Part shown: positions 11,499 through 16,504 of the stretch, piece after piece | Position numbering within the stretch: the stretch's first letter is position 1 | How the letters are laid out: every line of letters starts with the position of its first letter | Assembly (NCBI RefSeq): GCF_900114435.1 | Contig: NZ_FOZK01000001.1 | Location: 248,001-312,000 of the forward strand | Source: Halomicrobium zhouii | Lineage (GTDB): Archaea > Halobacteriota > Halobacteria > Halobacteriales > Haloarculaceae | Direction of reading: 5' to 3' | Length of the DNA stretch: 64,000 nt | Position numbers and translations under genes: made by a program | Notes under the pieces: model-generated | Told to the model about the DNA's origin: nothing | Databases searched by the model: none | The model's input: the letters and a program-made list of their open reading frames with translations, nothing else

Positions 11499-12030
11499 TC
11501 GCTATCGACCTCGCGGCCAGTTGCTCGCGCGCCGGCGCGGTCCGCGGGCCACCAGTCACCCCTCGCCCGTCGACGCGACGTCTGTCTGCCCGTTCGTCTC
11601 GGTCCCTCGCTCGAAGTCATGGATCGGCCCTTGCGGTCTCCGGCCATTGTTACGCGCCGACTGACGCCTCCTCTCACTCGAGGGCTACCGGGAGAGAGTG
11701 CCTGACATCAGCGCTATAGAGCACCTACCAATAGGGGACTCGCTCCAGTCGATCGCGACGGACGGCGCCGTCGCTCACGAAACGGGATTCCGGTGGGCAG
11801 AATACGAGTACCCCTACCCGCTGCCCACCTTCGTACTCGGTGGGTTCGTGAAGTGTGTAATAGGTTTTGTGGTACGTAACTGTCGAGCAGCGATCCGTTC
11901 TCCCTGTTTTCGGCAGTGTGCGGTCTGGAAACGACCGATGCCCCTCGACCGTCCGCTCCCGTGGTGGATCGGACCGGACACGACAACTTACGTGCGTGGG
12001 GTGTGAACTATCTACACTGGGGAACCAGCG
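11499..12030. other. Intergenic region with stem-loop copy 1
   Basis: About 530 nt without a convincing gene. Short open frames on both strands are in-frame with nothing and differ between the two copies of the stem-loop element. The interval holds the promoter side of the minus-strand membrane operon, the stem-loop at 11793-11828 with its A/T-rich partner box at about 11859-11875, and the upstream region of the zinc-finger gene. Confidence 0.6.
11793..11828 (-). ncRNA. Stem-loop element, copy 1 (candidate small RNA or mobile/regulatory element)
   Basis: Perfect 8-bp inverted repeat gtgggcag / ctgcccac with a 20-nt loop. Read on the minus strand, the loop contains cgggtaggggtactcgt. The same arms and almost the same loop recur at 13093-13130. 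In both copies an A/T-rich box (aggttttgtggt here on the plus strand) starts about 35 nt beyond the hairpin. Read on the minus strand, this box is placed so that transcription would begin just before the hairpin. A 2-nt length change in the loop between copies breaks any reading frame, so structure rather than protein seems conserved. RNA, DNA-binding site and miniature mobile element all remain possible. Confidence 0.45.
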
Positions 12031-12222
12031 ATGCCGACCGAACACTGCGCCATCTGCGGGTCCGCGACGTCCTTCGACGCTACCGTCCACGTCATGCTCA
12101 ACCCGAGCTACGCCGAGGGGGTCGACGACTACTACGTCTGCCGGGGCTGTCACGAGGACCACCTCGTCGACCTGTTCGTCTACCCCGACGAACCCGACCA
12201 GTGGGACGCCCCGACCGGCTGA
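12031..12222 (+). CDS. Small CxxC zinc-finger protein
   Basis: 63 residues from ATG 12031. Two knuckles, CAICGS (residues 6-9) and CRGCHEDH (37-40), can form one four-cysteine zinc site. The rest is acidic, as usual for haloarchaeal microproteins. Haloarchaea encode many one-domain zinc-finger proteins of this size; several affect stress, biofilm or motility, but this one's role is unknown. It is followed after 110 nt by the gene at 12333, and the pair is bracketed by two copies of the stem-loop element. Confidence 0.7.
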   Translation: MPTEHCAICGSATSFDATVHVMLNPSYAEGVDDYYVCRGCHEDHLVDLFVYPDEPDQWDAPTG

Positions 12223-12332
12223 GTCGATCCGGGCCACGAGTCCGTCTCTCCGGGTGTGACGGCAGTCTCGGGACCGCCTCGTGGCGGCGATGCGACGCCG
12301 TTATCCCCCTCGATCCCCTCTTCTCTACAACC

Positions 12333-13052
12333 ATGATCGAGGGACTGGACGCCGACGTCGCCGGCGTCGAAGCCGCCACGGAACGCCGCGACGAGGTCGT
12401 CGCCGAGGTCACCGAACACGCCAGCCTGGTCGCCCGGGAACTCTCGATTCTCCAGGGCGGGGACTACGGCCAGGCCGAGTTCGACACCAGCAACGGCACC
12501 TGGACGCTGAAGTACGAGGCCGGCACCGTCCAGTACCTCCGGTTCGAGGACGGCGGCACGGAGACGTACGTCGTCTCCTCGAAGCAACAGCCCGAACCGG
12601 AGGCGCTCGCCCAGGCGATGGAAGACTACGGGGCGTTCGTGCGGGCGTTCGCCGACCACGTCCGGTCGCTCGACGGCGTGCTCGACCAGGTCGAGACCGA
12701 CTTCCCCGAGGTGGAATCGACGGAGGACATCGTCGCCGAGCGCGAGCGGATCCTGAGCCGGATCCGGGAGTGTGCCGACCGGATGGCCGGCGAACTCCAC
12801 CGCGTCGCGGGGTCGAACTACGGCACCTTCGACACCCGCGTCGGCGGGAGCCGCTGGGAACTCAAGTGGGAGGACGGCCGGGCGCAGTACCTCCGGGTCG
12901 GCGGCGAAGGCGGCGTCTACCTCCTCTCGCAGTACGAACCACCCTCGCCGAAAGACCTGCGTCGCCACGTCGAGGACGTTCCGGCCTTCGTGGAGGCGTA
13001 CAACGACCACGTCCAGGAGATCTCCGAGGAACTCTCCACCGTCTCGCTGTAG
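12333..13052 (+). CDS. Conserved-looking hypothetical protein with internal duplication
   Basis: 239 acidic residues from ATG 12333. Two halves repeat the same plan: an Ala/Glu-rich helix, then DYGQAEFDTSNGTWTLKYE.GTVQYLRF, and again NYGTFDTRVGGSRWELKWE.GRAQYLRV. Each is followed by a strand ending VVSSKQQPEP or LLSQYEPPSP and a helix AFVRAFADHV or AFVEAYNDHV. The repeated unit, about 115 residues, looks like a small alpha/beta domain. I do not recognise a family with a known role. It is soluble, with no signal peptide or membrane segment. Longer readings from 11916 run through Arg-rich non-coding sequence. Confidence 0.72.
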   Translation: MIEGLDADVAGVEAATERRDEVVAEVTEHASLVARELSILQGGDYGQAEFDTSNGTWTLKYEAGTVQYLRFEDGGTETYVVSSKQQPEPEALAQAMEDYGAFVRAFADHVRSLDGVLDQVETDFPEVESTEDIVAERERILSRIRECADRMAGELHRVAGSNYGTFDTRVGGSRWELKWEDGRAQYLRVGGEGGVYLLSQYEPPSPKDLRRHVEDVPAFVEAYNDHVQEISEELSTVSL

Positions 13053-13092
13053 TGCGCGCCGGACGGAGAAGGCTCTCGGGAGTGAGATAATG

Positions 13093-13130
13093 GTGGGCAG
13101 AACGCACGAGTACCCCTACCCGCTGCCCAC
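13093..13130 (-). ncRNA. Stem-loop element, copy 2
   Basis: The same gtgggcag / ctgcccac arms as at 11793-11828, here with a 22-nt loop containing the identical gagtacccctacccg on the plus strand. A matching box (atgttttgtggtt) starts 34 nt beyond the hairpin, against 35 nt in copy 1. Conservation therefore covers roughly 80-85 nt in two blocks. Copy 2 lies between the hypothetical gene at 12333 and the ParA-like gene at 13293. Its nature is undetermined; see the findings. Confidence 0.45.
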
Positions 13131-13260
13131 TTCGTACCACGTACATGCGAGACGGGGGGAATATGTTTTGTGGTTGCGACGGCGGCCCGGACGCAACTGG
13201 TAGTGACCGCCTTCGCCCGGTCGCTATCGGTCCTGGCCGACGGACGCGGCCGTCCGACAC

Positions 13261-15643: not shown

Positions 15644-16504
15644 ATGAGTATCACATCTCAGGGGTGCCCCGAGTGTGACGGGGTGCTGGAAGCGTCGGAC
15701 TGCGAGACAGTGTGTGCGAGCTGCGGGCTGGTGGTGGCCGAGGACGTCATCGACCGCGGCCCGGAGTGGCGGTCGTTCCAGGACGACGACGAGGAGAAGG
15801 CCAGAACTGGCGCCCCGCTCACCCGGTCGCGCCACGACCGGGGCCTCTCGACGGAGATCGGTCGGTCGACCCGACTCAAGGGACGCAAGCGCCGTCGGAT
15901 GCGCCGCCTGCGTCGGCAGCACCGGCGCGCCCAGACAGAGTCGAAGCGCGACCGAAACAGGATGCTCGGGTTCATCGAGGTCCGCCGCGTCGTCAGCGGC
16001 CTGGACCTCTCCAGGACGATCCGCGACCGGGCGTGCGTGCTGTTCGAGTCCGCCCAGAGCGAGGACCTGCTGGTCGGCCGCTCCATCGAGGGGTTCGCCG
16101 CCGCCGCGGTGTACGCGAACTGCCGGACGTCGGGGGTGTCCCGGACGCTCCACGAGGTCGCTGGCGCGGCACAGGCCACCGAGGACGAGTTGCGCGTCGC
16201 CTACGACGCGCTGAACCGGGAACTCGGGCTCCCGACGGGTCCCATCGACCCCGCCGAGTACCTGCCGCGGTTCGCCAGTGACCTCGACGTCCCCCACGAG
16301 GTGGAGCGCAGAGGCACGGAACTGGTCGAGCGCGCCCACGACGAGGGCGTGGTCGCCGGCCGGAACCCCGGCGGCGTCGCCGCGGGCTGTCTGTACACCG
16401 CCGCCAGGGAACTGGGACACGACCTCACGCAGGTGGCGGCTGCCGACGCCGCGGACGTCAGTCCGGTCACGCTTCGGTCGACGTATCAGGCCCTGCAGGA
16501 CTGA
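15644..16504 (+). CDS. tfb: Transcription initiation factor IIB paralogue (TFB)
   Basis: 286 residues. The N-terminal zinc ribbon has C8-x2-C11 and C24-x2-C27 (CPECDGVLEASDCETVCASC), followed by the B-finger with GPEWRSF. Two cyclin-like repeats follow: residues about 108-190 (LDLSRTIRDRACVLFESAQ, SIEGFAAAAVYANCR) and 205-285 (ERRGTELVERAHDEG, GRNPGGVAAGCLYTAAREL). TFB bridges TBP-bound promoters to RNA polymerase. Between ribbon and core there is a very basic patch (LKGRKRRRMRRLRRQHRRAQ), stronger than in the usual archaeal form. Haloarchaea carry several TFBs, so this is one paralogue. Its 3' end overlaps the convergent ParA gene by 19 nt. Confidence 0.93.
   Translation: MSITSQGCPECDGVLEASDCETVCASCGLVVAEDVIDRGPEWRSFQDDDEEKARTGAPLTRSRHDRGLSTEIGRSTRLKGRKRRRMRRLRRQHRRAQTESKRDRNRMLGFIEVRRVVSGLDLSRTIRDRACVLFESAQSEDLLVGRSIEGFAAAAVYANCRTSGVSRTLHEVAGAAQATEDELRVAYDALNRELGLPTGPIDPAEYLPRFASDLDVPHEVERRGTELVERAHDEGVVAGRNPGGVAAGCLYTAARELGHDLTQVAAADAADVSPVTLRSTYQALQD

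Follow-up and report, generated by a model that had tools for sequence, protein, structure and literature searches.

Predicted hairpin RNAs of haloarchaea carry a conserved core complementary to the 5′ end of the S-layer glycoprotein mRNA

Introduction

In haloarchaea the S-layer serves as the cell wall. The mRNA for its glycoprotein is among the most abundant in these organisms, and no dedicated small RNA or other RNA partner for it has been described in the open-access literature searched; to our knowledge, few archaeal small RNAs have a known target. Among described haloarchaeal RNAs, sRNA132 of Haloferax volcanii is a 138-nt intergenic RNA with its own promoter, two stems and a pyrimidine-rich linker, which is reported in Haloferax only and predicted to bind the 3′ UTR of a phosphate-transporter operon; within its regulon, the transcript of the S-layer glycoprotein is one of those that are lowered (PMC6560208). 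Because sRNA132 lowers that transcript, an RNA influence on the S-layer gene has a precedent, albeit from an RNA that is apparently unrelated to the family described here. The two are alike as putative haloarchaeal regulatory RNAs with a promoter of their own and an S-layer transcript as an affected gene or candidate target, but they differ in size and distribution; sRNA132 is set apart by its published description, and no sequence relation is apparent.

In Methanosarcina mazei, sRNA154 pairs through stem-loops with mRNAs and has been proposed to stabilise its targets by masking RNase sites (PMC5867862), and sRNA162 is a two-domain trans-acting RNA that pairs with mRNAs encoded elsewhere (PMC3510493). 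The present family resembles sRNA154 as a conserved archaeal stand-alone RNA with stem-loops, but belongs to another lineage and differs in sequence, structure and targets, having one dominant candidate partner, the S-layer mRNA 5′ end, conserved across several families of the order. With sRNA162 it shares a probable action in trans, whereas that RNA has, by description, two domains and unrelated targets. The loop-initiated, cis-encoded plasmid antisense pairs CopA/CopT and RNAI/RNAII offer a likeness of mechanism rather than of membership: here too a G-rich loop would meet a C-rich partner before the duplex is extended, although the present RNA is encoded far from its partner.

Results

Two hairpin elements lie in the 64,000-nt stretch of Halomicrobium zhouii DNA analysed here (the window), at the positions given by the original prediction, 11793-11828 (36 nt) and 13093-13130 (38 nt). 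As it had also stated, both have perfect 8-bp arms that are identical between copies (GTGGGCAG/CTGCCCAC) around the common loop sequence CGAGTACCCCTACCCG, with a 2-nt difference between the loops, and in both the ‘gtttt’ part of a box follows at a conserved spacing of 34-35 nt; the first base of the box is 30 nt from the hairpin in copy 1 and 29 nt in copy 2. No match to such a spaced, perfect arm pair occurred in 100 dinucleotide shuffles of the window. The features of the elements and of their counterparts elsewhere in the genome are as follows.

11792-11829, minus strand: hairpin, copy 1; outer stem of 8-9 bp, inner stem CGGGUA/UACUCG, GGGG loop
11808-11819, minus strand: core GGGUAGGGGUAC, copy 1; perfectly complementary over 12 nt to the S-layer mRNA leader in its own genome
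11859-11873, minus strand: putative promoter box, copy 1, ACCACAAAACCTATT (plus strand, aataggttttgtggt); BRE and TATA type, at a fixed distance in relatives
13093-13130, minus strand: hairpin, copy 2; 6-nt 3′ bulge
13110-13121, minus strand: core GGGUAGGGGUAC, copy 2; complement of the same S-layer mRNA leader
13160-13174, minus strand: putative promoter box, copy 2, ACCACAAAACATATT (plus strand, aatatgttttgtggt)
L102 (G000:C3:670400-673400): S-layer leader site of the window genome, GUACCCCUACCC
L101 (G000:C3:7000-10000): leader hairpin of the MptE-like gene of the window genome, core at locus position 1508

Read 5′ to 3′ on the minus strand, each element comprises ACCACAAAAC(A/C)TATT (the BRE and TATA region), the predicted start, a few nucleotides and then the hairpin. 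From archaeal promoter geometry we infer ~25-27 nt between the box and the start, with predicted starts at ~11833-11837 for copy 1 and ~13132-13138 for copy 2. The minus strand also forms an inner 6-bp stem, CGGGUA-GGGG-UACUCG, that was absent from the original prediction. Because the G.U pair within this stem becomes an A.C mismatch on the plus strand, the minus strand makes the better RNA, and copy 1 folds at -19.9 kcal/mol on the minus strand versus -15.1 kcal/mol on the plus strand. The 3′ bulge varies from 4 to 6 nt in length, being 4 nt in copy 1. Neither window copy has a clear poly-U terminator, and the two are the only copies in the 4.25-Mb genome.

Relatives of these elements are found well beyond the window. 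Another genome of the same genus (G006) has both elements at an identical spacing of 1302 nt, and G019, from another genus, has one element whose arms are changed on both sides (GTGGACAG/CTGTCCAC). A first covariance model, built from five members, matched 13 of the 146 genomes of the family that were searched. In the order as a whole, the second had matches in 67 of 392 genomes, spread over 19 of 95 genera; 67 is an upper limit for the stand-alone class, since the weaker matches in f1 (g12, g43 and g10) and f4 (g65) belong to the MptE-leader class described below; the weaker f17 matches that were read were mostly stand-alone. Across 55 distinct relatives, 96.6% of pair cells pair and 48 cells are changed on both sides, a level of two-sided change that none of 500 shuffles attained and that slid controls did not approach (at most 9), in an alignment that was fitted to the model and therefore leans towards structure; the unfitted alignment of the first five sequences already has compensated arms.

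Among the relatives the arms vary with compensatory changes around a fixed core, and the BRE/TATA-type box, its spacing and the hairpin are kept in nearly all. The hairpin is followed in f7 by a GATTTATC-like sequence and in f17 by U-runs such as TTTTTTCTT. A poly-U end in some relatives gives these the look of stand-alone RNAs, and both kinds of 3′ end look like marks of short transcripts of this sort. Plasmid searches returned one copy, on a Haloterrigena alkaliphila plasmid, the match by which the f7 member was placed, and a viral scan filtered for promoter and spacing returned no convincing element. In Rfam, the window had no match at gathering scores, and eight member and partner loci, searched at E up to 1, gave one weak match only, inside the S-layer coding region. 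The predicted small-RNA family, of which no description was found in the open-access literature searched, is widespread in haloarchaea. Three stand-alone elements (L044, L046 and L049, in G433, G317 and G407, respectively) have the core GGGUAGGGGUAU in place of ...UAC; in two of these genomes, G317 and G433, the S-layer base opposite the altered final core base has changed as well, but no Watson-Crick pair results. Another candidate, L057, with the core GGGCAACGGTAC, is probably a false member.

The 11-mer GGTAGGGGTAC was searched in 33 genomes, and its sites, once read, proved to be of three kinds: the element itself (A), a leader hairpin of an MptE-like gene (M) and the leader of an S-layer gene (B). 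At B sites the reverse complement, GTACCCCTACCC, lies a few nucleotides past the predicted start of a gene identified as S-layer glycoprotein by NF041335, TIGR04207 and PGF-CTERM, with a 5′ UTR of ~90-130 nt that places the site ~100 nt ahead of the start codon. In the window genome the 11-mer is found at exactly four sites: both elements (A), the MptE-like leader (M, L101) and the S-layer leader (B, L102). Since a reversed control pattern has four occurrences there as well, the locations are remarkable and the count alone is not. The promoter of the S-layer gene, ACCACAAAGCATTTATAA, resembles that of the element.

In S-layer genes retrieved independently of the motif, through the signal-peptide family TIGR04207, ACCCCTA[CT]C was present in all 20 leaders read from element-carrying genomes, in 24 of 34 from genomes that were M-positive by the strict pattern and had no A, and in 9 of 27 from genomes negative by the strict pattern. 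The longest Watson-Crick match to the core is 10-13 nt in 25 S-layer leaders; of 2500 dinucleotide shuffles, six reach 10 pairs and none is longer. In predicted folds the site is more open than the remainder of the leader in 22 of 25 cases (mean unpaired 0.65 vs 0.49), and its distance from the promoter is equal in S-layer leaders of several families. Leaders of f7 (L147, L141 and others) have the site shifted by one base, UACCCCUACCCG. Locus L103 (G004:C1:342000-352000) contains three tandem S-layer leaders ~3.4 kb apart, each with a promoter and a complementary site, and two complete S-layer-type genes lie within the fetched stretch.

The M hairpin has the same core on a different and longer stem. 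It follows a GAGAAARCTTAT promoter and precedes an MptE-like gene (PF01973), which in the window genome has a Pterin_bind gene upstream of it. This deeply conserved leader hairpin is present in 230 of 392 genomes and is itself a further undescribed RNA family, perhaps a separate small RNA. U-rich sequence (TTTATC, AATTATT) often follows it. Four genomes of the same genus as the window genome (G001-G003 and G005) keep the leader hairpin in the absence of the stand-alone element; because they keep the S-layer site wherever an S-layer leader was read, conservation of the site is independent of that element.

Natural variants tie the leader hairpin to the S-layer site. In G133, G134, G135 and G008, where the strict MptE-leader pattern had failed, the S-layer site reads GU(A/G)CCCCUGCCC; a leader hairpin of GGGCAGGGG type was predicted before looking, and the MptE-like genes were then fetched by protein. 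As predicted, a GGGCAGGGGCA leader hairpin accompanies S-layer GUGCCCCUGCCC in G133 and G147, and the G133 leader hairpin, GGGCAGGGGCAG, has two compensated positions with respect to GUGCCCCUGCCC. S-layer GUACCCCUGCCC goes with leader hairpin GGGCAGGGGUGU in G134, G135, G136 and G008. Further agreement comes from G147 (a double change), G136 and, with a shorter match, G024, and G132 represents a G.U intermediate. Of the leader hairpins with C at the varied position, all seven that have a readable S-layer leader are matched by G in it. The events are few and clustered in genera g19 and g3, and we regard this hairpin-site covariation as strong, not extensive, comparative evidence of pairing. In G407 the complementarity to the MptE-leader hairpin extends up to 18 Watson-Crick pairs plus one G.U. 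For the stand-alone class, complementarity to the S-layer site is conserved, and no clear compensatory change was seen.

Hairpin RNA and site also tend to be present or lost together. In counts tallied by hand, the site occurs in 59 of 63 genomes with a hairpin RNA versus 2 of 10 without (Fisher p 1.5e-6, ignoring phylogeny). Genera g2 and g4 have an MptE-like gene without the leader hairpin and S-layer leaders without the site; G129 lacks both, in a genus whose sister genomes have all parts; and in G140 no leader hairpin was seen and the site is decayed. Because G227 and G291 have the S-layer site and no MptE-leader hairpin, together with three stand-alone RNAs each (several ending in U-runs), the site is evidently kept with the stand-alone RNA alone too. 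The exceptions are G191, with an MptE-leader hairpin and no site; G242, with stand-alone RNAs and no site in the sole S-layer leader found; G236 and G282, with a shorter site; and the incomplete genomes G142 and G143, in which the site is present and no RNA was found.

Discussion

We consider it likely that the stand-alone genes, with their S-layer-type promoter and hairpin-borne core, specify trans-acting RNAs that pair with the S-layer mRNA. This reading draws on what sequence comparison reveals: a structured RNA family, a complement that recurs in many genera, leader hairpins that covary with the S-layer site, and parts that are present or lost jointly. Transcription, RNA size, pairing in vivo and its outcome we infer. 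Each element would be a gene for a minus-strand RNA of ~50 nt that starts a few nucleotides ahead of the hairpin, and the hairpin would present the core GGGUAGGGGUAC around its GGGG loop. In trans, the core would then pair with GUACCCCUACCC, close to the 5′ end of the mRNA for the S-layer glycoprotein, the GGGG loop probably meeting CCCC before the duplex spreads to ~12 bp. When co-folded, the two copies and the MptE-leader hairpin of the window genome are each predicted to form a ~12-bp duplex with the S-layer site, at a net gain of 3.5-7.9 kcal/mol under standard RNA parameters (the internal salt of these cells is high); the net energy is modest because the hairpin must open. The promoter type common to both suggests that RNA and target may be made together. 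Because the site lies close to where the mRNA is predicted to begin and ~100 nt short of the start codon, control of mRNA stability through 5′-end protection, or of early events, is favoured over a direct block of the start codon, and either a stabilising or a repressing effect is possible.

The core of the MptE-like leader hairpin would pair with the same S-layer site, so that the MptE-like leader RNA and the stand-alone RNAs would be joined with the S-layer mRNA in one base-pairing network. To the broader reading of an order-wide network, in which the S-layer mRNA 5′ end is joined both with stand-alone RNAs made from S-layer-like promoters and with a pterin-gene leader, tying cell-wall to cofactor synthesis and including mRNA-mRNA pairing, we give somewhat less than an even chance.

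The direction of control may instead be the reverse, such that the S-layer mRNA 5′ end regulates MptE via the leader hairpin and the stand-alone hairpins mimic the leader as decoys or sponges. The leader hairpin is wider in distribution (230/392 genomes) than the stand-alone element (at most 67/392), is the partner with covariation, and occurs in G001-G003 and G005 without the stand-alone element; moreover, in a haloarchaeon the S-layer mRNA ranks among the most abundant transcripts (PMC5496347). However, G227 and G291 keep the site and three stand-alone RNAs each without an MptE-leader hairpin, and a pterin kinase and the S-layer have no known functional link, making this arrangement unlikely in our judgement. 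An aptamer for a metabolite or protein seems to us less probable still, in fact improbable. The hairpin would then be a riboswitch-like leader of the MptE-like pterin gene, with stand-alone copies, and the S-layer complementarity would be secondary; in favour are its compactness, its invariant core and its place in the 5′ leader of a gene for pterin biosynthesis that, where examined, has a Pterin_bind gene upstream of it. Such an aptamer leaves unexplained the S-layer leader complement at equal promoter distance in several families, the GGGCAGGGGCA/GUGCCCCUGCCC co-changes and the joint loss; its core should not drift to match another gene, and the covariation already strains it. Riboswitches and metabolite leaders are expected in cis to functionally related genes, and only the MptE-leader class is in cis.

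The original prediction had named, besides a family of small structured RNAs, a protein-binding site and a miniature mobile element. A transcription factor that binds GTACCCCTACCC as DNA downstream of co-regulated promoters (S-layer, stand-alone and MptE-like) would account for the 12-mer shortly past the predicted start in all three classes, two of which have a common promoter box, and a duplex site is indifferent to strand. Yet it would predict neither the compensatory changes in arms of unrelated sequence, nor the strand-favouring G.U pairs, nor poly-U tails right after the hairpins, nor the consistently opposite orientation in S-layer genes, and we rate it as very improbable. The chance that the elements are mobile, or remnants of something mobile, appears negligible: two similar copies do lie 1.3 kb apart, and locations differ between genera, but instead of many near-identical copies each genome has 1-3, with compensatory arm changes, a preserved promoter-to-hairpin distance and a core that matches an outside partner.

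The structured-RNA reading, by comparison, gains from the relatives recovered by covariance model and from their compensatory arm changes, and as far as sequence allows, copies and covariation have both been found elsewhere, leaving it unrefuted. Promoter geometry, covariation and the poly-U tails of relatives likewise favour the predicted arrangement, in which the box is the promoter of a minus-strand RNA whose 5′ end carries the hairpin. The bracketing of a zinc-finger and duplicated-protein gene pair, to which attention had been drawn, proved incidental: the duplicated-protein gene is kept in 7/7 genomes of the genus, four of them without a detectable element, which rules out a link to the pair, and stand-alone relatives adjoin unrelated, often convergent genes. 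A leader of 3-dehydroquinate synthase II, as seen in genus g14, is not general, as neighbours differ in other genera; a plus-strand RNA or 3′-UTR element was rejected because the inner stem, promoter position and relatives’ poly-U tails fit the minus strand; and a second hairpin downstream of some g14 and g1 copies is not conserved.

A conserved core that is the complement of the S-layer mRNA 5′ end suggests that haloarchaea may tune their cell wall by base-pairing RNA. The target is suggested here by comparison across several families, through a site of 12 nt, naturally occurring compensatory variants and lineages in which the parts have been lost, and the S-layer/MptE-like case offers a test of mRNA-mRNA regulation in archaea.

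Two neighbouring genes of the window may also be recorded. A MinD/ParA-like P-loop ATPase gene (PF13614; 13293-14015) lies just past copy 2, divergent from its putative minus-strand promoter, and an open reading frame at 15644-16504 has two N-terminal CxxC zinc-ribbon motifs and, by eye, looks like a TFIIB-type transcription factor.
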